Below, piece after piece: positions 1,639-48,334 of a stretch of 55,652 nucleotides of DNA; position 1 is the stretch's first letter, and each line of letters opens with the position of its first letter. Position numbers and translations under genes: made by a program. This DNA is from Lobosporangium transversale. Its lineage: Eukaryota; Mortierellomycota; Mortierellomycetes; Mortierellales; Mortierellaceae. Under the pieces are notes generated by a model that worked only from the letters and a program-made list of their open reading frames with translations, ran no database searches and was not told the DNA's origin. Location: NCBI RefSeq assembly GCF_002105155.1, contig NW_019029072.1:1-55652 (forward strand). Direction: 5' to 3'.

Positions 1639-2348
1639 TATGAATTTGTGCTTATCCATTGAATAGTAATCCTGGGATTAAAAATATAATCCTTGAGGAC
1701 ATCAACGTAGGTTACCGAATCGACCTTGCCTGGGAGCCAACAGCCATCGCCTGGTCCGTAGTATGTGATACAACCCCGGAACATCATTTTGCCTCCACGG
1801 CCTTGCCTTGTCTTTTTGATATGATGTGCTCGTAGAGTTTTATCCCATCGATGCTTGTAGTAGTACTTTCTTCCACAGGACCTAACCCTGCTGAATATGG
1901 TTTCATCTGAGAACATGACATTCTTCCAGTCGTCTATAGTCCAGTTCAAGTGATCCTTTGCAAAATTTTATCGAGCAAGGATATGTTCCTTCTTTAGATC
2001 AGGCTGCTTCTGTTTAACATATGCCTTCATATCATCCTCCATGAGGTACCTCCAGATGATCGTTTTAGAAACCTGCACTCCATCCCTCGATTGGACTAGT
2101 TGCTGGCCATTTTCGAGATTCTCCAATACACCCATGTCGAAATATCTCGATAAGAGCCGTTTTGTTTCCTTGGTGACTTTGCAAGGTTGGTCCCCTTTCA
2201 ACTTTGGAATATCTTCTTTACTTCTTTTCCTAATCCTTTGAACTGAGGTAACGGATATCCCAAAGCTCCTTGCCACTTCCCAGCATGACTTTCCCTGAAG
2301 AAGCTGAGCAGCTGCATTTTGGACAATTGATCTGGACAGTATCTTCAT
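1639..2348 (-). pseudogene. Tc1-A2 transposase, broken
   Basis: The N-terminal HTH part (1968-2348, starting MKILSRSIVQNAAA) is clearly homologous to Tc1-A1. The frame then meets a TAT-to-TAA stop just before the NFAKDHL stretch (about 1967). It continues in the same frame through NVMFSDETIFSRV (first catalytic Asp), and a one-base deletion near 1672 shifts it. It is cut off at about 1639 before the second catalytic Asp. The protein cannot be active. What remains shows roughly 75-80 percent similarity by eye to Tc1-A1. Confidence 0.85.
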
Positions 2349-2680
2349 GTTATAATAAAGATATGACAGATATGTAGAGTGTCGCCTGATGTATCAGCGG
2401 TGATAGCGCTAAAGAGAAAGAGTAAAGAAAAAGTGAGAAGTAAGGGGTGGACAAACCTGACATGTACTTTTTTGTGCAACTGATGCAATGAGACATGACT
2501 ATACAAATTACGATTAAATGCTAACTGCGTCATTGATGAGGATGGTGATGACAGTCCATGGAGGTGAGACAAATACGAATGAGAAACAGCGATGACATGG
2601 AAGATCATTAGAAAGAAAAAGGAGAATGAGGAATGAATGTCCAAAAGTGCAATTTATTGCATTAGTACTGAAATGCACCA
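1639..2680 (-). mobile_element. Tc1-A2, truncated relative of Tc1-A1
   Basis: On the minus strand this repeats the 5' two thirds of the Tc1-A family. Its end at 2680 has the family TIR (minus strand TGGTGCATTTCAG) next to TA at 2681-2682. The copy ends at about 1639, where Tc1-A1 sits. The 3' third, coding the second Asp and the Glu, is not on the other side of Tc1-A1, so it has been lost. Confidence 0.82.
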
Positions 2681-2825
2681 TAGATTAAAGTTATCTGTGG
2701 CACATGGTTCATTTTTAACATTTTTAGCTTTTTCCGTTGTTGAGCAATTTAAGGTTTCAGGCGAATCACCAGTAATAGGGAGTGTGTGCATGCCAGAATT
2801 ATTGAGTTTACTAGATTTTTTATGC

Positions 2826-3542
2826 TCATTGGCAAAACTTAACTCTGACTTGCCCTCTGTCCAGAAGAGAGGGAGGAGTGGACTGGAGTTGAGCTGCAAC
2901 CGCAGAAGACTGGGTGTTCGGGGCAGCGCGGGCCTGGGATATACCGTCCGGCTGAAATTGGTAGACTTTATCGTACTGTTCCGCAGCCGCAAAGAGTTGG
3001 TAGACTGTCAGGGTTTGTGTGACCTGGAAGGCACGCAAGAGTTGGTTCAAGGCAGGTGGACACCCTTGCACGAAGCAGATGAAAGCGAAGTCTTCGATTG
3101 CTTTGCGTCCTCCTGCCGAAGGCTCATCAGCTAAGAGTGCCGTGAGGAGTTCGCGGGCTTCGGCAACGTAATTGGTGACAGTAGTACTCATCTTAAGGGA
3201 GGACAGGCGAAATCGGATGAGTTGAGAGAAATCATTGGGGACGAACGCATCCCGGAACCCTTTTTCAAAGGTGTCGAACGATGCATCGTCAGAGATGCCT
3301 GCGCCGTTAAACCATCGGGCCGCGTCAGGCCCGAGGAAGGCTATGGCTACAACCGTCTGTGCCGAAGCAGGAACAGAGGCATCAACGAAGAAACGACGCA
3401 TAGAGCGCAACCAGGTGTTGGCTGAGAAGCCATCGCGCTTTCCCTCGAACTTGTCGGGTTGGGGGTACATGAAAGCGGGGGTCATCACAGGGTTGTCGGT
3501 AGTGAGCGTCATGGAATCAAGGATTAGGGCTAAATCTTCCAC
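2826..3542 (-). pseudogene. gypsy Gag, C-terminally deleted
   Basis: The 238-codon frame begins MEDLALILDSMTL and carries a retrotransposon Gag domain (about residues 30-180, with DFSQLIRFRLSSL and FICFVQGCPPALN). It is closely similar to the Gag at 11754-12671. After about residue 215 an internal deletion joins it to sequence that belongs downstream of gag, so the CCHC zinc knuckle and the frameshift signal are missing. The following pol N-terminal segment (LNNSGMHTLP...NEPC) is visible in another frame at 2690-2860. The protein would not package RNA normally. Confidence 0.85.
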
Positions 3543-3670
3543 AGAAAGCAGGTTGAAAGTAAAATCGAGGAGGTAGGGTGGTGCGGCAGGGGACAGGGGG
3601 ACAGGGAAACCAGGGGCAGGGGGGCAGGGGACAGGGATGAAGGTCGGGGATCAGAGTAGCTTTGCTACCA

Positions 3671-3756
3671 TGTAATAATTAAGAGAGACAAAAGACGATT
3701 TTATTATAATTATTAAAACAAGACTTTTTATAGGCTTAAGGCTATATACTGTCACA
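3671..3756 (-). repeat. 86-bp gypsy LTR (5' LTR, second Gypsy-1 copy)
   Basis: The minus strand starts TGTGACAGTATATAGCC and ends TTATTACA, a TG...CA LTR of 86 bp with a TATAAAAAG box. It is directly followed by the primer-binding-site-like TGGTAGCAAAG (3660-3670). Two other LTRs of exactly this length occur at 5578-5663 and 12779-12864. Confidence 0.88.
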
Positions 3757-3834
3757 ACCATATTCACATAACGCTTCTATTTTCCCAGCTTCTAACGCAC
3801 CCCGTATGTTAAATGATCCAAATTTAATAGCACT
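3757..3834 (-). pseudogene. LINE ORF2 fragment (start of AP-like endonuclease), displaced by inversion
   Basis: On the minus strand this reads in frame IKFGSFNIRGALEAGKIEAL, the characteristic first strand of an exonuclease-endonuclease-phosphatase (APE-type) domain of LINE ORF2. It continues in frame from the ORF2 start at 9327-9382 once the LTR-F inversion is undone, sharing the AGTGC target repeat. It is cut after 26 codons by the gypsy LTR at 3756. No reverse transcriptase of this LINE is in the window. Confidence 0.78.
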
Positions 3835-4335
3835 TGTCAGAGATAGCTAATCTCTGAGTTCTCATCTTCTAGAAATTCCATCTATCCAATGTGCAAGTCA
3901 TGTAAACAATGGTCACTCACCTGGACCGATAACGGAGATTGGGAAATAGATGACATCATTACGCCAAGAGTCTACGCCGAACCTAAATGTAATCGAGTGT
4001 CCAACGCAACCAAACAAATGCTGCGCAATCCGCAGCAAGACCAGATGACTCATCCGCATGACCCAAACTTGACCAATGATATTCCAGAAGACAAGCACGA
4101 AGAGAGTACCCTATCAGATGCCAAGACTCCGATTAGTAATCAATCATCAAACGAGGATGACTCTGTCACCTCAACCAAAACATATAAATAGTCTAGTAGT
4201 ACCATATCAAATCAGTAGCAATAAACACCTTATCTTTACTATACTGTTCCTCCATCCTTGCCCACGTACCTCTCTTGATCCCTTGCACACCAACTGGTTA
4301 GTTACCTAGCCTTCCTCTAGTCTGACTTTATTACA
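3835..4335 (+). repeat. LTR-F copy 1, 501-bp solo LTR
   Basis: It starts TGTCAGAGATAGC and ends GACTTTATTACA, TG...CA. The same 501 bp occurs inverted at 9383-9883, and an internal 100-codon frame is identical in both. The flanks here are GCACT on the left and CCAGG on the right, that is, one half of each of two different TSDs. No internal region of this LTR family is present. The 100-codon frame inside is not credited as a gene. Confidence 0.9.
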
Positions 4336-5557
4336 CCAGGAATATGATTTTGATTTCAAGTACAAGCGTGGATCTGATAACATTGTTCCAGATGCACTTT
4401 CGAGACGACCAGATCACCAAGATCCGCCATCCATTTCTGTCAACTCACTCGCGATCGAACTAGAGCCAAGCCTAAAGCAACGTCTGATTGACAGCTATGC
4501 TGACGATCCAAAACTAGCACTGATATACAGAGGCTGCCTTGAAAAACGCCCTCCGCCTCGCTACTCGCTTCATGATGGCCTTCTATGTGTCTTACGCCGC
4601 GAAACAAATGTTGTCTGTATCCCACAAAAGTCTGATATTCGCCTTGCCCTCCTCCATGATGCTCATGACTCTGCCATAGCTGGCCATCTTGGCTTTGACA
4701 AAACCTATGATACTCTCCGCCGCTATGTGTTCTGGCCTAGGATTGCTCGTGATACTCGTACCTATGTCCAAACCTGTGAAAGCTGCCAACGCAACAAGGC
4801 CAGCCATCAGCGCCCCGCAGGCCTACTCAACCCTCTCGCTATTCCAAAAGAACGCTGGGAAACCGTGACAATGGATTTTATAGTCAAGCTCCCCAAGACC
4901 CCCAGAGGTTTCGACGCCATCACAGTGTTCGTTGATAAACTTTCCAAGCAAGTACACTTTGTTGCCAGCACCACCAAGGACAAGGCCTCGGACGTGGCAA
5001 GGATCTTCTTTGACAACGTATTCAGGCTCCATGGTATGCCCACTACCATTGTCTCGGATCGTGATACAAAATTTACTAGGCAAAAGGGCAAACGCTCGCA
5101 GGAGTGACCACTCATTCGCTGTTGGAGACCAAGACTACTCAACACAGACGATATTACCATTGATGCTGAGAAAAACAGGCCGACACAAAAGCTCCGAGCT
5201 TTATTCGCTAGGCCTCATACTATCGTTGAACAGATCTCGCCTGTATCATTCCGATTGGAGCTTCCAAGCACGATGAAGATTCATGATGTGTTCCATGTAG
5301 ACCGTTTTAAAAAATATATTCCATCATCAGAGGCCTTAGGGCCTAGAGTACCAGCACGGCCGCCTCCTGAGATCATCGAGGTTGAAGAAGAATACGAGGT
5401 AGAAGCCATTTTAGATCATCGAATCAGCAACAATCGCCAGGAATTCCTCATCAAGTGGAAGGGCTATCCCAGAGAAGACTCTACTTGGCAGCCACAAAGT
5501 ACTCTTACCAACTGCACCAGGGTGCTTAAGCAGTACAAGAAAGCACATAGACTATAA
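4336..5557 (+). pseudogene. gypsy Pol C-terminal part: RNase H end, integrase, chromodomain
   Basis: The frame opens with EYDFDFKYKRGSDNIVPDAL, the segment after RNase H, then an HHCC zinc-binding integrase N-terminus (HDAHDSAIAGHLGFDKTY...CESCQRNK). Next comes the catalytic start MDFIVKLPKTPRGFDAI and IVSDRD (about 5050). At about 5078 an internal deletion removes the rest of the integrase core, including the catalytic Glu, compared with the intact Pol at 24135-27875. The C-terminal part (5255-5557) restarts with FHVDRFKKYI and a chromodomain (EEEYEVEAILDHRI...FLIKWKGYPREDSTW), which targets integration to modified histones. It is defective because of the deletion and the separation from its N-terminal half. 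Confidence 0.88.
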
Positions 5558-5577
5558 TTTTTTTTAAAATGGGAAGG

Positions 5578-5663
5578 TGTAACAGTATAGAGCCTTAAGT
5601 CTATAAAAAGGCTTGTTTTAATATTTATATTAAAATCACCTTTTGTCTTCACTACCTATTACA
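5578..5663 (+). repeat. 86-bp gypsy LTR (3' LTR of Gypsy-1)
   Basis: It starts TGTAACAGTATAGAGCC and ends ACCTATTACA, with TATAAAAAGG inside. It is a few substitutions from the 12779-12864 copy. The polypurine tract directly precedes it, which fixes it as the 3' LTR. Confidence 0.88.
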
Positions 5664-5816
5664 CAAATAAATAGATCACTCTGAAGTGTTGTACCAAGAC
5701 TTATCTAAACTCTTCTCCGTACACCATCGGATACGCTACATTTACACATTCCCTCTCTATACACACCCCTTCCACACCCCTGTTAGCGCACAGGAGTGCC
5801 AACGACATCACTCATC
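5664..5816 (+). other. LINE leader region with an LTR-C-like stretch
   Basis: Bases 5664-5705 resemble the minus strand of LTR-C (shared CTGAAGTGTTGTACCAAGA). The rest leads to the LINE ORF1 start and is pyrimidine-rich with no recognisable signal. Gypsy-1 apparently inserted here, but its two outer flanks do not form a TSD. Confidence 0.45.
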
Positions 5817-6540
5817 ATGGAACCTGCACTAGGAAAAAATCAGCAACATGATCCACCCAATTTGGACAGAAATGTCCCTCATTCGAAAAGAGCTCGCATT
5901 CCAAATAGCGGAATCGGATCTCAAAGACAGCCCAACAACCAAGAAGTCGGTCCCGCAAGCGGCATAGAGGCGAGAGGAAGCCGCGTTGACGAGGGAACGG
6001 GCTCTAAGAGCCGTCCTTCGTATAACCGCAGCCTGGGTGCAAATGGCTTGCGTGCAGCTACACAAGAACAGGACGCAATGGACGAAGACGATGTCGCAAT
6101 GGCCACTGTGGGAGTCACAGAATGGCAGGAAGTGAGACGCACCAAGGATAGGCTGAAGGCGGCCGGCGTCTTCCTCGAGGACCTTTATGGAACAACGGTC
6201 GCCGAAAAAAAGAAAGACCTAGAAACAGTCTTGTTGGATGCTGCCATCTATTGTACAGAAGGACCACACAAGGTTAAAGTCAATGGATATACTGCTTTCC
6301 GTGTTGCTGTTGAGGATCAACCATGCCTGACACCGCTCTTGGAAATGACTGCTACACACAGAGATGAAGACGGAAATGAACACGAAGTCCCATTGTTTTT
6401 TAAAATAAATACCGACACCCGTGAACGTAAACTGGAACGCACAGTGGAGGTTTATGGTATTGCTCCTAGGACTCCGGAATTCCTTATCAAGTCAGCAATG
6501 CTGCAGTTCGGTACTATTGAAAAGATTGCAACCCGCCTGT

Positions 6541-6690
6541 TGCGATTAGCAGTCATTTACATGGGTTTTTACTATAGCTAAGATTTTTACCCTTTTTATT
6601 TAACGAAGATCCCCGGATCATAATAAACAGATCTTTTTTTCGTTCTCGTTACTTATTATGATCCTGGCATATTTCACCGCCCATGCTCCG
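6541..6690 (+). repeat. insertion (or intron) with hairpin inside LINE ORF1
   Basis: An inverted repeat GGATCATAATAA (6615-6626) and TTATTATGATCC (6653-6664) forms a 12-bp stem. The segment is flanked by two imperfect direct repeats of about 30 bp (6530-6560 and 6676-6703, sharing CCGCC, AGCAGT and TTTACA). The total inserted length preserves the ORF1 frame. It could be a small hairpin element or an intron; no convincing GT...AG pair was fixed. Confidence 0.45.
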
Positions 6691-7572
6691 CAGCAGTAGT
6701 TTACAACAATGTTGAGGACGTCACAAAATTCAAATGGGCCAACCGGGAGCACGTCTTCAATGGAAAAGAACTCGCGCGCATCCGCAAAATCGGCAATGAA
6801 CGAGTCGAGTGGACATTGACACACGTCGCAAAAATCTCAGGTCTCCCTTTTGGAACGACAGACAAGGACTCGGAGCCTCTCCTTGGAGAAAAGCAAGCGA
6901 ATTTCGTCAAAGTGCCACGCTATTTTTCAAAGGACGGGAAGAAATGGCAATATCAACGAGAAGCATTCGTGTATTTCCCCTCTGCAGAAGCAATGGCGGA
7001 AATTATAACTAAACCAGTCAAAATCGGGGGCATTGAGACTTTCTGGGGTGATAGGGACGACAAACGATGCCGACAATGCCACAAACCAGGACACATCATG
7101 AGGGAATGCGAGGTATTCATTGCACTCCAGGAGACAAAGCAGCACATCAAAGCTGTCAAGGAATATCAAAAGGGAGGAGCATTGAAAGTTGTACCACAAC
7201 TCTCATACGCCAAAGCCGCCACGGGAAAGAGTGGAAGTGTTCCTCAAAGCAACCAACAGAAGGCACAGGAAGAAAAAACCAATACCCAAAGTTCTGGTCA
7301 AACAAACGTCATAGGAAAGAACAGCAACACTGGTGCAGTCGATAAGAAAATCCAGCAACTGGTAGATGCAGTGGAGCGCCTACGGGAAAAGCAACAACAA
7401 CTACGTGCTCAAAACAGTCTACTAATCCAAATGTTAATAGGAATGATGAGCCAACATCTTGGAATGGACTTCGCAGCCGAGCACCTGAAGGCAGCAGGAC
7501 TGAGTGGAGAGTTCCCCAGGAACGTGCCCAAAAACAAAGGTAAGTCAGCTACTTTTCCAGGCATGCCTCCTA

Positions 7573-9204
7573 CACTATCATGCAAAACTGATTCAATAAT
7601 TCATTCCCATGTGCATTTCTTTTTTTCATTCCTAGAAACCGTATATGCATACACCACTCACACTTTGGTTTAATAAAGCTCCCGTCTTCTTCTACGTCAT
7701 AGTGATGCGTTGTGACATTAGCTTGTCTCATTTGAATAGCTAATGACTTTTTTGTTCATGCAGGTCATTGAATCAGTTTCACATGTGCCCATTCGGTGGC
7801 CAAAGATCTTTATTCTTTTGTGAGGCATAACCTTACATCAATAGATAGTATTCCAACCATGGGCATCACTGACAGCTTGGAGTCTCTTATGGATACCTAT
7901 GATGAGTTTGCGGCAGAAGTCCACTGGGATCCTGTACCATTCAACCGATATTCGCTCCCATAGTTCATCACAGCTCTTAGCTCGCTCCGGATACCTAGAG
8001 AGCCGCCTATCCAATTCTGCCCACATGTGTTCAATAGGGTTGAGGTCAGGGGATTGTGCTGGCCACTCTAGAAGTGTACCTTCCTCTTCTGTCAGATGTA
8101 CTGACTCCAAATACTTCCTAACAATCTTCGCCGTGTGCTTCGAGTCATTGTCGTGCTGAAAGACGATATCGCTTTTAGTTAGGCCCCAGTCATCAAGCGA
8201 CATCTGTAGATCCTCCTGCAGTAGTTTGATGTAAAGTTGTGCGTCCATATTATTGTCAATCTTTGCAATGTATCCAGGTCCGTACCATGAGAAGCATGAC
8301 CACACTTTAACATTACCACCCCCAAACTTGACAGTGCCTTGCACCGACCTGCGAGTGAGGCGTCCCGGGTTGTCGTCCCAGATCCACTGCACGCCATCAG
8401 AGCAGATTCGGTTTATTTTCGATTCATCTGACCAAATAACCTTTTTCCAATCTTCCAGAGTCCATTCCTTATACTTTTTGATAAAATGCAAACGAGCTTT
8501 AATATGCCGTCGACGTAAAGCTGGCTTATGTACACGCCTCTTTGCTGTCAATCCTAACTCCTTGAGCCGTCGTCTAACGGTGGTCTCAGAAACAGCCGCT
8601 GGTATGAGCTGGTTGGCTCTGACGGTGGCCTCAACTGCAGACTTGAGTGTACCTCGTTTCATGTTCACCTTAAGATACTGCATGATACCTCTAGGTACTT
8701 TCCTTGGTCGACCGCCTTTATTGACTGGCATGTGCTCCTTATTATGTGCATAGATCCTGGTGGCCGTCGCTATTGATATACCAACACTAGCAGCAGTTTC
8801 TCTAGTAGACATGCCTCCCATCATGAACCTCCTGGCTTCGTTGACTTTCCTTTGTGGAGTGGGTCTCATATTCTGTGAAGGTATAGTTAAGAGAGAGTGA
8901 AGCAAGTGTTCATAAAGGAAAGAGAGAAAAGTCCTTTTTTTACTGGCATTAAATGACGTCCAAAAGTTGTCATGGGCAACATTTTAGACCACATGTGAAA
9001 CTGATTCAATGACCTGCATGAACAAAAAAGTCATTAGCTATTCAAATGAGACAAGCTAATGTCACAACGCATCACTATGACGTAGAAGAAGACGGGAGCT
9101 TTATTAAACCAAAGTATGAGTGGTGTATGCATATACGGTTTCTAGGAATGAAAAAAAGAAATGCACATGGGAATGAATTATTGAATCAGTTTTGCATGAT
9201 AGTG
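7573..9204 (-). mobile_element. Tc1-B1, complete Tc1-type transposon
   Basis: It is 1632 bp with 215-bp near-perfect TIRs (7573-7787 and 8990-9204) starting CACTATCATGCAAAACTG, flanked by TA (7571-7572 and 9205-9206). Removing element plus one TA restores the LINE ORF1 frame. Within each TIR AAACTGATTCAAT occurs near the outer end and its inverse near the inner end. A copy of exactly the same length is at 31950-33581. Confidence 0.93.
7838..8905 (-). CDS. Tc1-type transposase with DD39E-like spacing
   Basis: This is a 355-residue protein; a second in-frame Met at residue 13 is an alternative start. An HTH lies at about residues 20-55 (ARRFMMGGMSTRETAASVGISIATATRIY) with a GRPRK AT-hook-like motif just after, and a second HTH at about 75-130. 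Catalytic residues are Asp in VIWSDESKIN, Asp in FQHDNDSKHT and Glu in SPDLNPIEHMW. There are 39 residues between the second Asp and the Glu, against 34 in Tc1-A1, because a stretch rich in Glu (LTEEEGTLLEW) is longer. The frame has no stop. This copy is the only one of four in the window that is intact and is the likely source of trans-acting transposase. Confidence 0.92.
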   Translation of the reverse strand: MLHSLLTIPSQNMRPTPQRKVNEARRFMMGGMSTRETAASVGISIATATRIYAHNKEHMPVNKGGRPRKVPRGIMQYLKVNMKRGTLKSAVEATVRANQLIPAAVSETTVRRRLKELGLTAKRRVHKPALRRRHIKARLHFIKKYKEWTLEDWKKVIWSDESKINRICSDGVQWIWDDNPGRLTRRSVQGTVKFGGGNVKVWSCFSWYGPGYIAKIDNNMDAQLYIKLLQEDLQMSLDDWGLTKSDIVFQHDNDSKHTAKIVRKYLESVHLTEEEGTLLEWPAQSPDLNPIEHMWAELDRRLSRYPERAKSCDELWERISVEWYRIPVDFCRKLIIGIHKRLQAVSDAHGWNTIY

Positions 9205-9326
9205 TACTAACGAGTCCCTAGCAGGGATTATGGCTCTCATAGCAAACGGAGCAGGGAGTATGGAAAAAAGTAGAAAAGAAGAGAAATCAACCTCAAGCGG
9301 ATTGCCGCCAAAACCACTAGTCCATA

Positions 9327-9382
9327 ATGAGTAATGCAAGCACTCAAAGTAGACAGGACAGTACTAGATCTAATAGCAGTGC
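9327..9382 (+). pseudogene. LINE ORF2 start, cut by LTR-F
   Basis: ATG at 9327 opens a second LINE frame (MSNASTQSRQDSTRSNSS) that overlaps the ORF1 stop within ATGAGTAA, a -1 overlap typical of coupled LINE frames. After 18 codons and two bases it runs into LTR-F. Its continuation, the endonuclease start, is at 3757-3834 on the other strand. Confidence 0.72.
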
Positions 9383-9883
9383 TGTAATAAAGTCAGACTA
9401 GAGGAAGGCTAGGTAACTAACCAGTTGGTGTGCAAGGGATCAAGAGAGGTACGTGGGCAAGGATGGAGGAACAGTATAGTAAAGATAAGGTGTTTATTGC
9501 TACTGATTTGATATGGTACTACTAGACTATTTATATGTTTTGGTTGAGGTGACAGAGTCATCCTCGTTTGATGATTGATTACTAATCGGAGTCTTGGCAT
9601 CTGATAGGGTACTCTCTTCGTGCTTGTCTTCTGGAATATCATTGGTCAAGTTTGGGTCATGCGGATGAGTCATCTGGTCTTGCTGCGGATTGCGCAGCAT
9701 TTGTTTGGTTGCGTTGGACACTCGATTACATTTAGGTTCGGCGTAGACTCTTGGCGTAATGATGTCATCTATTTCCCAATCTCCGTTATCGGTCCAGGTG
9801 AGTGACCATTGTTTACATGACTTGCACATTGGATAGATGGAATTTCTAGAAGATGAGAACTCAGAGATTAGCTATCTCTGACA
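9383..9883 (-). repeat. LTR-F copy 2, 501-bp solo LTR (inverted relative to copy 1)
   Basis: It is the same 501 bp as 3835-4335 in reverse orientation. Read along the LTR, its flanks are CCAGG before and GCACT after, the reciprocal of copy 1. This is the right breakpoint of the inversion. Confidence 0.9.
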
Positions 9884-11775
9884 CCTGGAGTAACTCCATC
9901 CAGCGCGCTTGCCGCCTTGTTAATTTGGGTTGTGTTGGAAAGTGACGCAAGGTAGCGTGGTCGGTGTATATCACGAAGTGAGTGCCATCGAGGTAATAAC
10001 GCCAGGTCCTAAGTGCATGAACGACTGCTAATAATTCTTGCTCATGTGATGGGTAATTCTTCTCGGCTGAACTTAGTTTCTTGGATGTAAACGCTACCGG
10101 GCGGGACTCTCCATGCTCATCTGTTTGGAATAATACAGCACCTATAGCGAACCCCGAGGCATCCGTGGTTAGGTCAGGGTCAAATATTCTGAGCACAGGG
10201 GCCTTGGTTATGGCATTTTTCAAGGTAGCAAATGCGCGCTCTTTTTCTTCATCCCAAGAAAAAGTGGCACTGTCACCTAAGAGAGCAGTCAAGGGTAAGG
10301 CAATAGTGGCGAAGTCACGAATGTACTGCTGATAGAACTGAGCAAGGCCAATAAACTGTTGTACATCTCTCTGCTTGGTGGGACGAGGCCACTCCTTGAT
10401 AGCCTTGACATGACCAGCGCTTGTCTTGATGCCGTCTTTACAAACAACATGCCCTAGGAATTCAGTTTCTTCTTGCATAAAGGAGCACTTGCTAAGTTTG
10501 GCATAGAGACGATTCTTCCGGAGGAGCGAGAGTACACTGCGAATATGGGCCAGATGCTCGGTCTTGTTCTTGGAGTAAATTAGAATATCATCCAGGTAGA
10601 GTATTACACATTTATCTAATACTGGGCCCAGCGCTTGAGACATCATGGTGGAGAAGCACAGGGCGAAAGGATAGATCTGCATTAGGGTCTGTTTCAATCT
10701 TCATAGAATCGCCTCGGTCTAGTGGAAGATCTGCAGGGAGTGAGTCAGGAAGGACATCAGGGAACTCAACCTGTATAATTGATGCAATGTCAGGGTGTAT
10801 GTCGGAAGTGGTATTTGTTGAGAGCTGAGGGAGTTTTACTGTGGCGAGGTAAACCTCGCTGTCTGGCTGTGCCGCGACAGTTTGGAAATGCATGTGGCTC
10901 ATAAGTAGGCCGCGAGACTTAGCTGTAATGTAATTTGTTTGGAATCCCCTGCATGACCAGCGCACGGTATTACCATTGTGTGTGAAGTGGAGATCATTGG
11001 TGCGCCAATCGATAGAGGGGTTAACTGCGGTAAGCCAAGGTTTGCCAAGAATGAGGTCATAGTGTTTGAGGGGGTAGACGAGTGGGTGGAGAGTGTCGGA
11101 ATAGGTGTCGCGTTCAAGAGTAATGGAAACAGTATGTTGGGTGATGGAGCGGTCACCGTTAGGGAGTACAATTGGAATGGGTGAACAGGAATGAAGAGGA
11201 ATGGAGTTTTGTTTTTGGAATGAGGAGCTAATGATGTTACCCTCGGCGCCACCATCGATTAAAATCCTGGCAGGACGGCCATTAACAGCACCAAGGAATG
11301 TGAGTAGGGTATGGGCAGCGATGTCGACTGTGAAGGATTGTAGTCGAAGGGCCTTCTTGCGTGAGTGGCGTTGCTGGTTCTTGAAGGAGAGGGGAGGTGC
11401 TAGGTTAGACTGAGATTGGAGTGGGTCCAGGTCCACTGGCTCAGATGTTCTAGGCACTTCGAGGGGGCAAGGTTGTGGAGAGGAAGATACAGAGATCGTG
11501 TGGCCATTGGTATGGTGAGTGTTTAGGTTTAATTTATCTCCGGCACATGGCTCATTATTTACATTTTTAGCTTTTTCCGTTGGAGAGAAATTTAAGGTTT
11601 CTGACGAATCATTGATAGGAGGAAGTGTGTGCATAGCAGAATTTTTAACTTCAACAGATTTATTTTTAATGTTGGGAAAACTTAACTCTGGGTTGCACAC
11701 ACTCCCCTTGTCCAGAAGAGAAGGAGAGGTTGCTTCAGCGATCAAGCCCTGGACTATGCTTGACCGCTGGGGGCT
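9884..11775 (-). pseudogene. gypsy Pol N-terminal part: protease, deleted RT, RNase H
   Basis: In the -1 frame after gag, Pol starts near 11775 and reads through IAEATSPSLLDKG to an aspartic protease motif (ARILIDGGAEGNIISSSF, about 11240-11290). It then reaches VEFPDVLPDSLPADLPLDRGD. Near 10685-10697 an internal deletion of about 120 codons removes the fingers and most of the palm of the reverse transcriptase. The frame resumes at FSTMMSQALGPVLDKCVILYLDDILIYS, keeping YLDD. RNase H follows (TDASGFAIGAVLF, FVIYTDHATLRHF), and the frame ends RWMELLQ at LTR-F. It is non-functional but closely parallel to 24135-27875. Confidence 0.86.
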
Positions 11776-11781
11776 TTTCCC
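11736..11781 (-). promoter_or_regulatory. predicted -1 ribosomal frameshift signal, Gypsy-1 gag/pol
   Basis: On the minus strand the heptamer G GGA AAA (11775-11781) lies in the gag zero frame. It is followed by a 5-nt spacer (GCCCC) and a 12-bp stem, CAGCGGTCAAGC with GCTTGATCGCTG (one G-U pair, 10-nt loop 11748-11757). The gag stop TAG (11754-11756) is in the loop. Slipping back one base enters the pol frame, open without a stop. The same layout is found in Gypsy-2. Confidence 0.75.
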
Positions 11782-12671
11782 GACACAGAGTCTGGAACAT
11801 TCCCCTCAGGTAGAGACAGACTATTAAAGTTCCGGGCTCCTCGGCGACCAGGGCATTCATTGGCGCGATGACCATCTTGACGGCACTTGAAACATGCACC
11901 TCGTCGAATCAATTCAGTTCGTTCGGCGGGAGTAAGGGGGGCAAGAGAGCTTCTACTATGGAGATGCTTCCGTAAAGCATTAAGCTCGATTCGAAAGTTA
12001 TCTAGTTCCATAGCCATCGGGTCTCGAGCGGCCTGGAGCTGGGTCGCGACCACAGATGCCTGAGTGCTTGGGGTTTGTCGAGTTGAAGCCTTGTTGTCGG
12101 GTTGGAAGTTGTAAACCCTGACGAACTGTCCAGCTGCCTCAAAGAGCTGATATACAGTGAGCGTTTGGGTTACCTGGAGGGCACGCAAGAGATGGTTCAA
12201 TGCAGGGGGACAACCTTGTACGAAGCAAATGAATGCAAAGTCTTCAATAGCCTTACGACCGCCGGTTGTAGATTCGTCAGCTAGTAAAGCAGTTAGAAGC
12301 TCGCGCGCTTCAGTGACATAATCAACAACCGTAGCGGTCATTGTCAATGAGGATAGACGGTACCAGATGAGTTGAGAGAAGTCGTTCGGGATAAACGCAG
12401 TGCGAAAACTGATCTCAAAGGATTCGAAGGTGGCATCATCAGCGATGCCTGAGCCATTGAACCATCTGGCGGCATCAGGGCCAAGGAAGGCAATAGCTAC
12501 AACAGTCCGAGCTGCGTCAGGCACGGAGGCGCCCACAAAAAACCGGCGCATGGAGCGCAACCAGGTAGTGGCCGAAAAGCCATCACGCTTGCCGTCGAAT
12601 TTGTCAGGTAGTGGGTACTTGAAGGAGGAGGAAGGAGCAGGGGTGTCAGAGGTAAGAGTCATGGCGGACAA
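11754..12671 (-). CDS. gypsy Gag with CCHC zinc knuckle (Gypsy-1)
   Basis: A 305-residue structural protein of the retrotransposon particle. The start is chosen at MSAMTLTSDTPAPSSS because it is the first ATG after the leader. The Gag core spans about residues 25-185 (FDGKRDGFSATTWLRSMRRFF, DFSQLIWYRLSSL, FICFVQGCPPALNHL). A CCHC nucleic-acid-binding knuckle is at about residues 265-280 (CFKCRQDGHRANEC). The frame ends TAG in the loop of the predicted frameshift stem. It is intact although the pol of the same element is deleted, so it could still be made. Confidence 0.88.
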   Translation of the reverse strand: MSAMTLTSDTPAPSSSFKYPLPDKFDGKRDGFSATTWLRSMRRFFVGASVPDAARTVVAIAFLGPDAARWFNGSGIADDATFESFEISFRTAFIPNDFSQLIWYRLSSLTMTATVVDYVTEARELLTALLADESTTGGRKAIEDFAFICFVQGCPPALNHLLRALQVTQTLTVYQLFEAAGQFVRVYNFQPDNKASTRQTPSTQASVVATQLQAARDPMAMELDNFRIELNALRKHLHSRSSLAPLTPAERTELIRRGACFKCRQDGHRANECPGRRGARNFNSLSLPEGNVPDSVSGKAPSGQA

Positions 12672-12778
12672 CAGGGAAGATAATTGATCAAGGGAAAGCA
12701 GGATGAAGCAGGGCAGAAAAACACAGGGAATCAGGGTTACAGGGATAGAGGTCGGAGATCAAAGAAACTTTGCTAACA

Positions 12779-12864
12779 TGTAATAGGTAGTGAAGACAAA
12801 AGATGATTTTATTATAAATATTAAAACAAGCCTTTTTATAGGCTTAAGGCTATATACTGTTACA
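12779..12864 (-). repeat. 86-bp gypsy LTR (5' LTR of Gypsy-1)
   Basis: The minus strand starts TGTAACAGTATATAGCC and ends ACCTATTACA. It is followed by TGTTAGCAAAG, a one-base variant of the PBS seen in the other elements. The right flank is the start of Tc1-C. Confidence 0.88.
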
Positions 12865-12869
12865 CTATG

Positions 12870-13460: not shown

Positions 13461-16400
13461 CAGTGCTCCTAATCGGTACATTCGATTCAATACACCTTCG
13501 AACCGAAATCGAATTGACCAAGGTAAGGTTCATATCGAATTCAAACCGAATGAATATATATTGTCGAAACCGAATCGAATGTATCGAATATTCGATGCAT
13601 TCGGTAAACCGAATCATTCGGTGCCTCGATTGTACCGATTCAATTCATTTGATATACCGAATCATTCCGTACATTGATAAACCGATTAAAATTTTTACAA
13701 ATTTTTTCTCACGGCACTCTTATTCAAAATGTGGATTTAAATCGTGGATTAAGGAAAATATTACCATGAAGATAAGGTTAAAACACATGTTTATAGAAAA
13801 TAAAGCCTAACAACGAGTGCGAGATATCTGGTGCGTTACACTTAAATACTCAACTGCGGCATCAGGACAACAAATGTGTTTGCATTCTCTTCATTTCGCC
13901 TCATTTCCTTTCCTTTTCCTTTTTTTTTTTTTTTTTTTTCTCTCTTTTCCTTTTCATGCATTATCTCAATTCAGCCCAAAACATCTCGTCGAATTATCGA
14001 GGAGGAAGAAGAAGAAGTATATATTGATTACATTTGCCATATTACTTTGTATTAAGAAAAGAAGGAAAAAACTTAACCTTAATGTTTAAATTAATACCTC
14101 CATTGCAATTTTATCATACATGAACTTAAGGTTTATGACGTTGGTAACACTTCTATGTCTGCCAGCTTTGACGCACCTGACAACGATATGGATATGGAGA
14201 GCGTGATGAGCGGCAGCGATGAATGAGAGCTTAGTGACGAGGAGCGTGGGAAGCTCCAGCGTGGCAAGCAGCACGGCGATCAACCGAAGCTGGGCGTGGT
14301 CACTGAAGAACAAGTGGGCCGAGCGTGTTAAAACTAAGAGTGGCTCTGGTATGCGCTGCTGTTACCCTAGCTGCGGGAAAACCTTTGGTTCATCCAATAT
14401 GTCAACTTCAGGGGTCATCCAGCATCTGTGGCGAGTACATCGCATCACTAAAGATAGCAATGCCAATGATGGCAGTCTCTCCAAGCAAGGCCCGATGGAC
14501 AAGATGCTTAATTTATTTTCTCAGCCAAAAGTATTTGACCCTACGAGATTTGACGAATTGCTTGTCCGATTCGTTATCACAACAAAGCAGCCATTTACGA
14601 TTGTCAAAAGCACTGCTCTCCAGGAGCTTCTAGTCCATGCTACAATGGCTACAGCATCTCAAGTAAAGCTACCGTCTGATGACACCATAGCAACCAAGGT
14701 AAAACTATTATTACTATTATTATGATTATTATTATTATTATTATTACTCTTCAATTACTATTTTTTTTTTATAACAAACATCAACCAAACAGTGACAAAA
14801 AGATGGTTTAAAAATAGGCTAAGCTAAAATACCAATACATGGAGCATCAAGTCATAAGCTTATTTGAGGATATTAACAAGGTATCACTGACCGTTGATGG
14901 CTGGACAAGCCCTTTCCAAGACAACTTCCTGGGGGTAAGAGCTCACTGGATTGACCATGACTGGCGCCAACAAGAGCTGGTCATTGGATTTGAGCCATTG
15001 TATGGAGCGCATACAGGTGAGAACTTAGCGGAATCTCTGGCTAAGGTCATCGATCGATTTAAAATTGGTGACAAGCTTCTAAGTATCACCACCGACAATG
15101 CGTCAAATATGTCCAAAATGATCCGAGAGCTTGAAAAGCATCCCAAGGCAGTAGAATGGTAATTCTCAGTCACTTTCAATAATGCTAGCGCAACTAGCAA
15201 TGAGTTATCTCTAACGCTTCTCTTAAAAAAAATAAAAATAAATAAAAATAAAAAACATTAGGCCGCTCAAGGATGGCTTATACCATGTGCCATGCCTTGG
15301 ACACATCATTAATCTGGCAGTTCAGGCGATTTTGGGCCCAAGCGGTTTGAATGACTTGGTTCCTGAAAATGACAGTCTCTACGTGAACAACAATGAGTGT
15401 GAGGATGCGGTTGGGTTAACGCTTGTAACGCTGAGTACATTACAGAAACTCAGAAAAGGCATTGTTAAGATCAGGTCAGTATTACTATATAATCTTGGCT
15501 GCAAATATAAACTCGAATCATGAAACTTAACTATAAAATACCTTTTATATCGACTTATACATAGAGCTTCGCCACAAAGGATTGACAAGTTTGGCTAGGT
15601 CTGCGCTATCCTGAAATGCCCAAACCTTGAACTGAAAAGGGATAACTGCACACGTTGGAACTCTACTTTCATCATGGTGGATAGGGCAATAACGTTAAGG
15701 CTAGCCTACCAGAGCATGTGCCAGAACGAACCGTTTTTATCGGCCTTCTCCCTGAAAGACGAAGAATGGGACTACCTGAAGAAGCTCCATATTTTGCTTA
15801 GCCAGTTTAATGATATCACAGCGACGGTGTCTTCTAGCCTGGGATACCCGGAAATCAACAGAGCCATGTCTGCTTACAACAACATGATCGACCACCTAGA
15901 AGATTATATTGAAAAAGAAGAGGATCCTCCACTAAAAAACGCAGCAGGTCAAGGGTTAAAGAAGCTTTTGCGTTATTATTCTACAACTGATTCCTCAGCG
16001 GTCTATGCCGTCGCCACTGCTATGGACCCGAGGATGCGGTTTGACTGGTGGGAAGCTAACGAATGGGGTGAATATATTCAAAGCAGCCAAGACATGGTAA
16101 CGAAGGTCTGGGAAGATGAATATAAGGGCAAAGAAGGCCTAAGTCAGCTTCCAGCTGAAGAAGAAATGGAGATGAGACGCTATGGTATCAAGAAAAAAGG
16201 CGGAGAGCTTGAATTATACGTTCGAGAAGGAAGTTCTCTAGTTGCTAGTAAACAAGAGCCTCCAGAGTTAGTGTACTGGCGATCACAAAAGGAGCGCTTG
16301 CCCAATTTGGCGAATATGGCAAAGGACTATCTTGCAGTCCCTGTGACATCAACCCCGGCAGAAAGATGCTTTTCGCAAGCCAAGTTCTTCCTGCCACCTG

Positions 16401-16924
16401 AAAGAAATAGCCTTAGCCCTACGACGATCCAGCGCTTGGTCATCCTGGACTCTTGGATGAATGTTCTCCCATAAATTAGTTGCTATAGTTCTGTATACAT
16501 TCGTTATAAGTGATAAGTCAAAATTTAAATATATTTCCAACATTTGAACGTTAGTCGAATGTACCGTGGCGCATCAAATTGTGTAAGCCCATTCTAACCT
16601 GTCAAGTTTTTTATTCAAAAAGCCGATATAGTCGTATTAAAGAGTGCATAGATACATTCCATGCGCTTAAAAAATCGGTTTCGATGCATTCGGTAAATCG
16701 GTTTCGATACATTCGGTAAACGGTTTCGATACATTCGATGCATTCGATATAATCGTACGACCCATGCTACACATTAAGGGTATCCATTCAACACATTCGA
16801 TTCATTCGATTCGATACAGGAATGGAGCATTCAATTTCGGTACAAACTTACCCTGAGCCGAAACCGAATCGAATGCATTCAATCCCATTCAATTTCGGTT
16901 GTATCGAATCGATTACGAGCACTG
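13461..16924 (+). mobile_element. hAT DNA transposon, copy 1 (3464 bp)
   Basis: The ends are CAGTGCTCCTAATCGG on the left and the inverse CAGTGCTCGTAATCGA on the right. The target duplication CCGCTCAT is perfect, 8 bp (13453-13460 and 16925-16932), the hAT hallmark. Both subterminal regions (13480-13690 and 16660-16915) are packed with short ATTCGA / TCGGTTT repeats in both orientations, likely transposase-binding sites. A same-length inverted copy is at 39785-43248. Confidence 0.93.
14219..16474 (+). pseudogene. hAT transposase with BED finger and three introns, one stop
   Basis: Exons: to 14698, 14818-15158, 15262-15474 and 15565-16474, with GT-AG introns of 119, 103 and 90 bp. All phases join (for example ...KAVEW then PLKDGLYHVPCLGHIINLA). 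A BED-type zinc finger (CCYPSCGKTFGSSN...HLWRVH) lies near the start, then the DDE/RNase-H-like core (LTVDGWTSPFQDNFLG, ITTDNASNM), RWNSTFIMVDRA, and the C-terminal dimerisation region (PVTSTPAERCFSQAKFFL). A TAG at 15596-15598, after SPQRIDKFG, breaks exon 4. The true start is uncertain; an ATG at about 14156 gives an acidic N-terminus in another frame, ending at 14225. Confidence 0.85.
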
Positions 16925-17350
16925 CCGCTCATTTCCTTCACTCATTCCTCCATGCATAGTTTGCCTGTCAAGCCAAGTCGCGTCTCCTAGTTTTCTAGCT
17001 CCGTGAATAGCTCCAAGGATTCTAGAAGAGCTATAAACCAATAACCAAGACTTATAGTGCCAAGGAACCTTGAAATAAGATTGCACCAGATATCTTCCTC
17101 GGATCCTGTGTATTAAGTTAACTCAACACTTGGAGTTCCGCATATGGTAAAAGTCCTTAGGAAATATTTGAGTAAGCTTTATTTAGAGTTCTTGAAGCGC
17201 GTCTCCGCTTCAGTCAAACAAGTATAAATATGATAGATTTGTAACATAGTAAACCTCAGTCTGCAATAAAACTATTCTTGAATCTCCTAAGTTCATTCTT
17301 GTTCCTAAATCACTTACCTTCTCTTGCAATCGTCCTGTCAGTCCTTGACA

Positions 17351-23088: not shown

Positions 23089-24060
23089 ATGGAACACTTG
23101 AATAACGCCCTTTCGTCCATCGATCTTCCTCTGAACATTCGCGAAGCCATAGCTACTGCTTTTAATCAGGCCCTCTCTACTGCCAAAGCCAACGAAGCCG
23201 CTGAGAATGACCTAGCCAGAACCCTCGCCACGGTCCTAAAGCCACAGAAGCCTACGCCTTACGAAGGAGCTATTAACGCTGTTGCAGCCTTAAACTTTGT
23301 CGACAGCCTGGAGGAGTATTACACTATTGTCACACTCACGCCATCCAAATGGGTTCGATACGCTGTCCTCAGTCTCAATGGCGAAGCCAAGGCATGGTGG
23401 AGAGATTCCGGGTTGAATCTCGATACACCTTGGGCTGACTTCCGTAAAGCATTCCTCCGTCAGTTCACCCCTCCAGATTCTGCGAATGCAGCTCGCCGAG
23501 CGTTGGATTAACTTCGTCAGGGAAGGATGAGTGTGGCAGAATATACGAGCAAGTTTAGAAGCCACCTACGTCTGGCTACAAATCTCGACAAAGACTCTGC
23601 TTTGCAAAAATACATGCTAGGCCTTGAGCCCGAAACAAGCAAGCAGGTGAGACTTAGACAGCCAGAGACGTTGGACGATGCCATTGAGCAGGCGACCATT
23701 GTCCACAGTATTCTACATCCCATCGATGCCACCCCTGTATCCGCTGCCCCGAACGCCTTATCACCCCATCATGAGAATAATTCTGGCCCTACACCAATGG
23801 ATCTCGATAACATGAGAATGTTGGTTGCCAACCTGTACACCTCTCTCCATCAGCAACGACCAAACAGAAACCACTCCAAGCCAAGCTCGCTACCCAAGCT
23901 CACAGCAGCTGAACGAGAACGTTGCGTTCGTGAGGGGCGTTGTTTCAGATGCCGGAACCGAGGTCATAGAGCCGAACAATGCCAACGCACCTCTGTCTTT
24001 AATATAGAAAACAATGACCATACGCTTTCTGAGTCGGGAAAAGAGGAGGGCGAGCAGTAA
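23089..24060 (+). pseudogene. Gypsy-2 Gag with one in-frame stop
   Basis: The frame starts MEHLNNALSSIDLPLN. A Gag core (KWVRYAVLSLNGEAKAWWRD) is followed by TAA at 23509-23511, and the same frame continues directly (LRQGRMSVAEYTSKFRSHLR) to a CCHC knuckle (CFRCRNRGHRAEQC, 23944-23985) and TAA at 24058-24060. Without the stop it would be 323 residues, close to the Gypsy-1 Gag. A single substitution explains it (for example TTA to TAA). The element is otherwise young. The C-terminal end carries the predicted frameshift signal. Confidence 0.88.
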
Positions 24061-24078
24061 ACCAGGCCTGCCTCGCCC
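24036..24078 (+). promoter_or_regulatory. predicted -1 ribosomal frameshift signal, Gypsy-2 gag/pol
   Basis: The heptamer G GGA AAA (24036-24042) is in the gag zero frame, followed by a 5-nt spacer (GAGGA) and a 7-bp stem GGGCGAG (24048-24054) with CTCGCCC (24072-24078). It is extendable by GAGG-CCTC across a bulged A. The gag stop (24058-24060) is in the loop. The pol frame is open from 24033, so one base back gives a Gag-Pol fusion. Confidence 0.78.
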
Positions 24079-27000
24079 CCTCTAGCCCCAGCCTTCAAGC
24101 CCTGGATAATAGAGGGCATGGTCAGTTACAGTTGATGACTACAAATAAAAATCCTTTGTGCACAAATATAACATCCATGCCCCTTTCTGATCACTCTATT
24201 GCTCCCACTGCATCTACTTCCTTACATCTACTCTCTAAGTATTCACCTCATCCTGATCCCCATTCCCCTACTCATTCCTCATTGCTAAAAAACAATCCCC
24301 TCTCCGACCCTATTTTCCCCTCCACTGATCCTTTCACTGTTTCCACTTCACTCACTTCCACTCATTCATCTACCCCTAGTTCATCCAATCGCCACTCCCA
24401 TTGTCGTAACGAAATTCGCCTTCAATCCTTCAGCCTTACCTATGACAAACATAAAAACTCTCGCCGACTTCTTACTTTCATTGGAGCAGTGAATGGTCGA
24501 CCTGCGCGCATTCTTGTAGATGGAGGGGCCGAAGGCAATGTCATAAGTTCCTCTTTCTGCGAGAACACACATGTTCCGCTAATTGAGGGTAGACCCATTC
24601 CTGTCATTCTTCCCAACGGTACCGAGACAATTGCTCAGCACACAGCCACGTTCACCCTCGCCCGCAACGCGTATCAGGATAAAATCAACGCCATTGTTTA
24701 TCCTCTATCCAAATACGACCTAATTTTGGGTAAACCATGGCTGACGGATATCAACCCTCGCATCAATTGGCGAACAAATGATCTGCATTTTGAATACCAA
24801 GGTACCCCGGTCTTGTGGGCTTGCACTGGCATCGACAGGGAGCCTAGACAGCGATCTTCCGTCATATCTGCTCTTAACTTCCTTACCGTTGCCTCGGAAC
24901 CTGATGCCTCTGTATTCCTCGCCCAAGTTCGAGTTCCAGTACCTGTCTCTAGCAGTAGTTCTGAACTACCGGACTCTATCAAGCAAATCGTTCAAGTCGA
25001 ATTCCCTGATGTCTTTCCTACAACGCTTCCCGATGGCCTTCCCCCTGACAGAGGTGATAGCATGCGTATAGAGACTGACCCTTATGCTGACCCACCTGTC
25101 CGACCTGTCATCAGCTTGTCGATCGCTGAGCTTGATGAACTGAAGAAGCAGCTAACTGATCTTTTACAAAAAGGATTAATCTCACCGAGCACCTCACCAT
25201 ACGGTGCTCCAGTCCTCTTTGTGAAGAAAAAGGATGGCTCGCTTCGAATGTGTGTTGATTATCGGGGCCTGAACAAGATCACAAAGAAAAACAGGTACCC
25301 CTTACCACGGATCGATGAATTGATCGACAGATTCAGAACAGCTAAATGTTTTACCAAGCTGGATCTACTCTCGGGCTATCATCAAATGCGTGTCCATCCT
25401 GATGATAAACACAAGACCGCGTTCCGAACTCGCTATGGCCACTACGAGTTTAACGTCGTACCTTTCGGTCTTACAAATGCACCTGCAGCGTTCTCGACTA
25501 TGATGCGTAACGTACTTGATCCACTTCTTGATAAATGTGTTGTTGTGTATCTCGATGATATTTTAATTTACTCCGATAACGAGAAAGATCACTTAGAGCA
25601 CATCCGACAAGTACTCTCCCTCTTGCGTCAAGCTGGGCTTTATTGTAAATTATCCAAGTGTTCCTTCATGCAGGAAGAGACTGAGTTCCTAGGCCATGTC
25701 ATCTCCAAGGATGGACTCAAGACGAATGGCGGACTTGTCAAGGCAATAAGGGAATGGCCAGTACCAACAACCCAACGACATGTGATGCAATTCCTTGGTT
25801 TGACTAATTTTTACCATCAGTACATTTCTCATTACGCTGATATTGCTCTTCCCCTCACACAATTGTTAGGCTCCAATAAGGAATTCCACTGGGGAAAATC
25901 TCAACAAGACGCCTTTGAGACTTTGAAAAGAGCAGTGAGCTCAGCACCAGTTCTTAGGATATTCGATCCTGCCCTCTCTACAGCAGTCGAAACAGACGCT
26001 TCAGGCTTTGCAATTGGTGCTGTCCTGTTCCAGACGGACCAAAATGGTGAATCACGACCAGTAGCTTTTACTTCACGCAAGCTCAACCCAGCGGAACGCA
26101 ACTATCCTACACACGAACAAGAACTGCTGGCTGTGGTGCATGCTCTGAAGACATGGCGATACTACCTTGACGGTTCTCACTTTGTCGTTTATACCGACCA
26201 TGCCACTCTACAACATTTTCCTAGCCAGCCGAACTTGACTCGCAGACAAGCAAGATGGATGGAGTTGCTTCAAGAGTATGATTTCGTATTCAAGTATAAA
26301 CCTGGTAAAGATAACGTCGTCCCTGATGCTCTTTCGCGAAGACCGGACCTCAAGGACTTGGAGGCTACACCTACTACTTTGAACTCCTTGGATATCAATC
26401 TAGACCCTGGTATTCGAAAACAACTAGCCAGTTGCTACCTACACGATCCAATTCTAGGTCCCCTCGTGCATCAGTATAAGGATGCCTCCACCTCGGATCG
26501 TTACTTCGTGGTTGATGGTCTACTCTGGATCAACGCTGGACAAGGCCCTCGCCTCTGCATACCCAAGGACGACGGACTCCGTTCACAACTCTTGCATGAC
26601 GCTCACGACGCTCCTATATCAGGCCACTTGGGATTCGATAAAACGTACAGTAGCATGCGACGAACATATTTTTGGCCACGCATGGCGAGGGATATAAAAA
26701 AATACATTGCTTCCTGTGAGCAATGCCAGCGTAACAAGCCTTCACTAAAGCCTCCTGCAGGGCTTTTCCAACCTTTGGCAATTCCAAGCCAACGATGGGA
26801 TACTGTAACAATGGACTTCATTGTCAAGCTTCCGAAGACAGCCAGAGGTTTTGACGCGATCACGGTCTTTGTGGACAAACTGTCCAAGCAAGTTCATTTC
26901 TGCGCTAGCCGAACTACCGACACTGCCTCTGATGTTGCACGACTCTTTTTCGACAATGTTTTTAGACTGCACGGCATGCCTCGGACAATTGTGTCAGACA

Positions 27001-39358: not shown

Positions 39359-39784
39359 TGTCAAGGACTGACAGGACGATTGCAAGAGAAGGTAAGTGAT
39401 TTAGGAACAAGAATGAACTTAGGAGATTCAAGAATAGTTTTATTGCAGACTGAGGTTTACTATGTTACAAATCTATCATATTTATACTTGTTTGACTGAA
39501 GCGGAGACGCGCTTCAAGAACTCTAAATAAAGCTTACTCAAATATTTCCTAAGGACTTTTACCATATGCGGAACTCCAAGTGTTGAGTTAACTTAATACA
39601 CAGGATCCGAGGAAGATATCTGGTGCAATCTTATTTCAAGGTTCCTTGGCACTATAAGTCTTGGTTATTGGTTTATAGCTCTTCTAGAATCCTTGGAGCT
39701 ATTCACGGAGCTAGAAAACTAGGAGACGCGACTTGGCTTGACAGGCAAACTATGCATGGAGGAATGAGTGAAGGAAATGAGCGG
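39359..39784 (+). repeat. LTR-D 5' part, cut by hAT copy 2
   Basis: It starts TGTCAAGGACTGACAGGACG and matches the LTR-D at 13356-17350 (first 80 bp identical by eye), better than the solo LTR at 44395. It ends ATGAGCGG at the hAT. The 3' part of the LTR is missing beyond the hAT. Confidence 0.88.
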
Positions 39785-42700: not shown

Positions 42701-43248
42701 CTTCCTCCTCGATAATTCGACGAGATGTTTTGGGCTGAATTGAGATAATGCATGAAAAGGAAAAGAGAGAAAAAAAAAAAAAAAAAAAAGGAAAAGGAAA
42801 GGAAATGAGGCGAAATGAAGAGAATGCAAACACATTTGTTGTCCTGATGCCGCAGTTGAGTATTTAAGTGTAACGCACCAGATATCTCGCACTCGTTGTT
42901 AGGCTTTATTTTCTATAAACATGTGTTTTAACCTTATCTTCATGGTAATATTTTCCTTAATCCACGATTTAAATCCACATTTTGAATAAGAGTGCCGTGA
43001 GAAAAAATTTGTAAAAATTTTAATCGGTTTATCAATGTACGGAATGATTCGGTATATCAAATGAATTGAATCGGTACAATCGAGGCACCGAATGATTCGG
43101 TTTACCGAATGCATCGAATATTCGATACATTCGATTCGGTTTCGACAATATATATTCATTCGGTTTGAATTCGATATGAACCTTACCTTGGTCAATTCGA
43201 TTTCGGTTCGAAGGTGTATTGAATCGAATGTACCGATTAGGAGCGCTG
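39785..43248 (-). mobile_element. hAT DNA transposon, copy 2 (3464 bp, inverted copy)
   Basis: It has exactly the length of copy 1 and identical encoded fragments. One terminal base differs (GCGCTG for GCACTG at the right end). The left flank ATGAGCGG is the expected 8-bp target, but the right flank is AT-rich DNA, so one side of the original target is lost. Confidence 0.93.
40235..42490 (-). pseudogene. hAT transposase copy 2, same stop as copy 1
   Basis: Exon pieces have the same translations as at 14219-16474, with introns at corresponding places. The TAG after SPQRIDKFG is shared (minus strand, about 41113). BED finger, DDE core and C-terminal dimerisation region are all present. Both copies therefore descend from one already defective element. 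Confidence 0.86.

Positions 43249-48301: not shown

Positions 48302-48334
<33 letters not shown>

Follow-up and report, generated by a model that had tools for sequence, protein, structure and literature searches.

Exchanged target-site duplications at a pair of inverted long terminal repeats in Lobosporangium transversale support an LTR-mediated inversion, as assembled

Two LTR-F copies with exchanged flanks

The stretch of DNA examined here, referred to as the window, is a whole contig of Lobosporangium transversale (NW_019029072.1, here C122; 55,652 bases) from an assembly of 42.7 Mb in 127 contigs. It carries two copies of a long terminal repeat (LTR), LTR-F, that lie in opposite orientations on either side of a segment in which only transposon sequence was recognised and no host gene was seen (Table 1). 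The name LTR-F was taken from an earlier, sequence-only reading of this DNA, as was the name long interspersed nuclear element (LINE) for the element that adjoins copy 1 and makes up part of the segment. LTR-F has the TG...CA ends and the short direct target duplications expected of a solo LTR, and it is on these ends and the 5 bp duplications that the putative label 'solo LTR' rests.

Alignment of the two window copies revealed 0 differences in 501 bases. Read along each LTR, the flanks are GCACT and CCAGG for copy 1 and CCAGG and GCACT for copy 2, i.e. they have been exchanged. With equal base frequencies, the probability of both crosswise 5-mer matches arising by chance is 9.5e-7. The coordinates, the identity of the LTRs (501/501 on alignment) and both exchanged 5-mer pairs are exactly as given in the sequence-only reading.

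Reading frames are also split at the two sites. One gypsy pol open reading frame (ORF) runs as far as the LTR at 9884, where it reads QARWMELLQ, and a second ORF has the residues EYDFDFKYKRG from position 4336 on. The window also has a related gypsy ORF of 1,280 aa that is uninterrupted (24033–27875); at the break point it reads RWMELLQEYDFVFKYKPG. The LINE pieces MSNASTQ...SNSSA and IKFGSFNIRG, from the start of an ORF2 that we take to be endonuclease-like, are contiguous in paralogous stretches. The uninterrupted gypsy ORF and the contiguous LINE paralogs bear out the earlier claim that gypsy pol and LINE ORF2 are both split here. The junctions had been counted as four and independent; all four agree, but only the two target sites are independent, and each had been counted once as a 5-mer and again as a frame.

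To find unbroken versions of the two sites, the four flanks were searched one by one in the same genome, and a copy was counted when matches reached the break from both sides. On the gypsy side, the flanks at 9884 and 4336 are adjacent in 8/8 copies (C24, C66, C43, C35, C63, C79, C125 and C39). On the LINE side, 9382 runs into 3834 in all seven (C117, C96, C44, C37 twice, C114 and C34). Each paralog therefore joins window flanks that are now at opposite ends of the segment. Copies in which the match ends before the break were not counted (for example, gypsy C76, C56, C117 and C99; LINE C79; gypsy relatives at 66–70%). The uninterrupted sites are paralogous, not allelic, and each target is single in them, with one site in gypsy and one occurrence of the 5-mer or its counterpart in LINE. 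In 14 of the 15 paralogs, the overlap between the two flank matches is exactly 5 bases; for C35, C43, C63 and both C37 copies, whose matches end 1–5 bases before the site on one side or on both, this value is extrapolated from coordinates. The remaining paralog, the gypsy copy on C79, has a 1 bp deletion inside the motif. Neither breakpoint loses or gains bases. This continuity of the paralogs is the strongest evidence, and it needs no assumption about duplications.

Because the flanks are exchanged and the paralogs are continuous across both sites, we conclude that, as assembled, the sequence between the LTRs has the reverse of the orientation expected from two ordinary insertions, and this conclusion is well supported. 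Reversing it turns both LTR-F insertions into ordinary ones, and both junctions have been kept on one molecule. The size of about 6 kb originally given for the inversion applies only when both LTRs are included (6,049 bp).

Table 1. Positions of the LTR-F pair, their flanks and other transposon sequences in the window
Feature	Position	Strand	Details
Inverted segment	4336–9382		5,047 bp between the LTRs; basis: exchanged flanks and paralog continuity; crossover would lie somewhere inside the LTRs
LTR-F copy 1	3835–4335	+	501 bp, TGTCAG...TTACA; 501/501 identical to copy 2 reversed
LTR-F copy 2	9383–9883	-	501 bp; orientation opposite to copy 1
GCACT, 5' flank of copy 1	3830–3834	+	Half of LINE-side target-site duplication; partner AGTGC 9378–9382
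CCAGG, 3' flank of copy 1	4336–4340	+	Half of gypsy-side target-site duplication; partner CCTGG 9884–9888
GCACT (minus-strand reading), 3' flank of copy 2	9378–9382	-	
CCAGG (minus-strand reading), 5' flank of copy 2	9884–9888	-	
LINE ORF2 continuation (IKFGSFNIRG...)	3757–3834	-	Truncated at 3756 by gypsy element A
Gypsy element B, 3' half	4336–5663	+	pol from RNase H end through integrase; Pfam Integrase_H2C2 8.7e-21
Gypsy B 3' LTR	5577–5663		About 87 bp; 95.4% to 12779–12865
LINE-like element, 5' untranslated region (UTR) and ORF1 pieces	5664–7570	+	Putative name
Tc1/mariner-type transposon inside LINE	7571–9206	-	217 bp inverted ends; Pfam DDE_3, HTH_Tnp_Tc3_2
LINE continuation up to LTR	9207–9382	+	Includes ORF2 start (ATG 9327)
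Gypsy element B, 5' part	9884–12865	-	Reverse transcriptase/RNase H, gag; Pfam RT_RNaseH 2.2e-37, RVT_1 1.2e-14
Gypsy B 5' LTR	12779–12865		
hAT-like transposon pair	13461–17350; 39359–43248	+; -	Copies inverted and separated by about 22 kb; 99.97% over 3,890 bp

LTR-F elsewhere in the genome and other elements of the window

When LTR-F was used to query the genome, at least 26 matches were returned, including both window copies. Twelve stretches holding other matches were inspected; two 46 bp pieces on C117 were left out. Copies with at least 94.8% identity were classed as close, and duplications were counted in the five close copies outside the window that retain both ends. This count leaves out two close fragments on C63, each of which is missing an end, the distant copies on C13, C38 and C51 (79–82%), and truncated or diverged pieces on C110. 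Perfect 5 bp duplications flank four of the five (C24, TGTGC; C35, CAGAC; C91, AGGTC; C59, ATCAC). The fifth, on C79 (C79:133500-143400, LTR at 4648–5151 of that stretch), has the mismatched flanks GCTGC and GAGGT. A 5 bp duplication is thus the rule for LTR-F, to which the two window copies and the C79 copy are the exceptions. The flanks read for other LTR-F copies include neither a GCACT nor a CCAGG pair.

The C79 copy sits between two different gag-like fragments, and perhaps represents another rearrangement through LTR-F. A partner for it was looked for and was not found. The distant copies on C13, C38 and C51 share one common context, with flanks ATACC and ATATC (4/5 bases alike). On C59 (C59:96000-105900, 2066–7840), an LTR-F copy is split by a gypsy insert with a 5 bp overlap, AGTAC, and this insert holds a 1,280 aa ORF whose start resembles that of the window ORF at 24033–27875.

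Two characters set the window pair apart from the five other aligned copies: the base at alignment column 180 and a 1 bp deletion in a length-variable run at column 416. Because both characters are common to the pair, the window LTRs are either sister copies or copies made alike by conversion. The C24 copy, the C59 copy and the window pair are separated from one another by four substitutions each.

The two C63 fragments lie in the same direction, 15.4 kb apart, and were checked as a pair, with nothing near or between them that could be assigned to LTR-F. The ORFs found there are Crinkler-domain, gypsy-B, hAT-like and Tc1-like, together with one on the minus strand (C63:48000-57900, 6065–8005) that is presumably DIRS-like; besides its reverse transcriptase it has a Dam methyltransferase match, at 6.1e-06 too weak to pass the Pfam cut-off.

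In the window itself, two pieces of LINE ORF1 were scanned against Pfam and gave no match. A second exchanged pair was sought there, and the inverted hAT-like pair was checked; its flanks are not exchanged. The first 2,685 bases are occupied by two related Tc1/mariner-type copies (1–1641 and 1638–2685) in opposite orientation that are 85% alike over about 1 kb, and gypsy A can be recognised from the edge of the second copy onwards (about 2681). A Helitron (45911–50440, minus strand) has an uninterrupted 1,509 aa helicase ORF (Helitron_like_N 9.8e-53, PIF1 9.1e-66). Elsewhere in the assembly, the small contigs C125 and C114 hold near-copies of stretches in the larger C39 and C34, which may be redundant contigs or recent duplications.

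Origin of the inverted arrangement

A homologous crossover between inverted LTRs appears to be the best and simplest mechanism, and we consider it very probable that the inversion, as assembled, was LTR-mediated in this way. Two LTR-F retrotransposons of one lineage would have inserted about 5 kb from each other with opposite orientations, one at GCACT in the LINE and the other at CCAGG (gypsy strand) in the adjoining gypsy, each generating the 5 bp duplication that is read from the flanks. Recombination between an element's own two LTRs would have cut each of them down to a single LTR. A crossover within the 501 bp inverted LTRs would flip the segment between them and swap one flank per LTR, which is the arrangement seen, and would leave the parts of the gypsy pol frame, like those of the LINE ORF2 frame, at opposite ends of the segment. 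As both inverted LTRs remain, the same crossover could flip the segment back. The crossover cannot be placed because the LTRs do not differ.

Ectopic recombination between inverted LTRs had been described as proven. It is supported by the exchanged duplications and by the 8/8 gypsy and 7/7 LINE paralogs, but 'proven' is too strong because there is a single assembly, the LTRs are identical and no full-length LTR-F was recognised.

Several observations weigh against an inversion by this route. The evidence comes from the present assembly, hence the wording 'as assembled', and none of the at least 26 LTR-F matches was recognised as a full-length element. The check for chimerism needs sites at which the two LTRs vary; there are none, and the copies thus cannot be shown to be chimeric. 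The 15 paralogs are not all independent because some form near-identical pairs: C24/C66, C125/C39, C114/C34 and the two C37 copies are 99.8–100% alike over about 3.1 kb, and C117/C96, the fifth of five pairs compared, are 98.7% alike. Independent paralogs thus number at most six for gypsy and five for LINE. The contig is small, the second smallest of 27 contigs sized, and its start lies next to a Tc1 copy and its end falls within a second one. Finally, the outer flanks of gypsy B are mismatched even when the segment is un-inverted, since the 5' flank, CATAG, lies within a Tc1 copy (CTATG as target) and the 3' flank, CAAAT, within the LINE 5' UTR, and the locus has thus had at least one further rearrangement.

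The gypsy B mismatch suggests another rearrangement or a chimeric gypsy, and a deletion or an exchange between gypsy copies would explain it. On C62, the two flanks of a solo LTR from the gypsy B family match perfectly (CATGT). Other same-direction gypsy LTR pairs, on C24 and C79, are also without matching flanks, and these may not be the ends of one element. As far as the inversion is concerned, the outer flanks of gypsy B neither support nor refute it.

The solo LTRs may have formed before or after the segment inverted. One possible variant, which we regard as tentative and which is included in the overall probability given to crossover between LTRs, places the crossover between LTRs of one or two full-length LTR-F elements, with solo LTR formation later. 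It leads to the same end product, and no feature of the sequence gives the relative age of the two steps; however, it needs no fewer steps, and a full-length element was not recognised in the genome.

An error in the assembly, with a wrong walk through the 501 bp identical inverted repeat and the un-inverted order being the true one, would likewise give identical inverted repeats with crosswise flanks. The small size of the contig is in keeping with this, as are the near-identical contig stretches (C125/C39 and C114/C34), which are what redundant contigs would give. However, the window is without any N, and the contig includes repeats that are longer than the LTR (3,890 bp at 99.97% and 1,636 bp at 99.7%), which suggests that the reads were probably longer than 501 bp. 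We therefore consider an assembly error unlikely.

It is similarly improbable that the locus is a reversible flip site, at which both orientations of the 5 kb segment coexist among the nuclei of the culture through recurrent crossover and conversion that homogenises the LTRs. If it were, the C79 copy, with its mismatched flanks, would be a further product of a recombination-prone LTR-F family.

Aberrant integration, in which two ends of complementary DNA (cDNA) or a hybrid element were joined crosswise and no canonical insertion ever occurred, is very improbable. The hybrid route predicts identical rather than chimeric copies in the cited sections of the report on the Drosophila transposon Galileo (PMC2775673), and the window LTRs are identical. 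However, the hybrid-element model set out there concerns transposon copies, not LTR cDNA, and the identity of the LTRs is equally expected for sister copies or conversion. Two coordinated events without loss of bases would also be needed, and four of the five other close copies are normal.

Two unrelated insertions with flanks that match crosswise by chance or decay can be dismissed: the C79 copy does have mismatched flanks, but the chance of the 5-mer matches is about 1e-6 and 15/15 paralogs join the window flanks crosswise. Chance matching was ruled out by these 5-mer odds and the paralogs, and unrelated insertions with flanking deletions by the contiguity of the paralogs at both sites.

Relationship to known inversions

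Exchanged target-site duplications between inverted copies are a published criterion for inversions generated by ectopic recombination, as set out in the cited sections of two Drosophila studies (PMC2775673, PMC3355041). In the Galileo study, ectopic recombination is expected to leave chimeric copies and insertion of a hybrid element identical ones (PMC2775673, in the part cited). The Drosophila buzzatii inversion 2z3 described there resembles the window in having oppositely oriented copies at the breakpoints and exchanged duplications, with each target present once in uninterrupted DNA and no bases lost (PMC2775673). According to the same sections, 2z3 differs in that Galileo is a DNA transposon with 7 bp duplications, the copies are chimeric and non-inverted chromosomes were sequenced (PMC2775673), whereas the window has LTRs, 5 bp duplications, identical copies, and uninterrupted sites that are paralogous rather than allelic. 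Inversion 2s of Drosophila mojavensis also has exchanged duplications between inverted copies, but the cited part of that report describes a different element, BuT5, with 9 bp duplications, and an inversion that is fixed in the species (PMC3355041).

In element class, and probably in the kind of host, the closest cases are the Ty-mediated inversions of yeast, where LTR-retrotransposon copies recombine to give inversions and other rearrangements, as outlined in the introduction to the Galileo report (PMC2775673). In the cited portion of another yeast study, solo LTRs have 5 bp duplications, and an inversion is attributed to 5S rRNA genes rather than to LTRs (PMC10085805). Plant solo LTRs without matching duplications are also comparable, since ectopic LTR recombination leaves unmatched flanks there too. 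The cited passages attribute them to homologous unequal recombination and treat them as element removal (PMC7251063), while here, unlike in those cases, both reciprocal junctions have been kept on one molecule as an inversion. Our literature search covered titles and the starts of abstracts, with few subscription journals; within that material it returned Drosophila DNA-transposon cases and no solo-LTR inversion with exchanged duplications.

The LTR-F inversion is a further example of a known mechanism and of a known diagnostic. It documents an LTR-mediated inversion cleanly at the molecular level, and unbroken paralogs elsewhere in this assembly reveal both original targets. Small inversions can thus be scored from exchanged target-site duplications in a single genome, without a sister strain.

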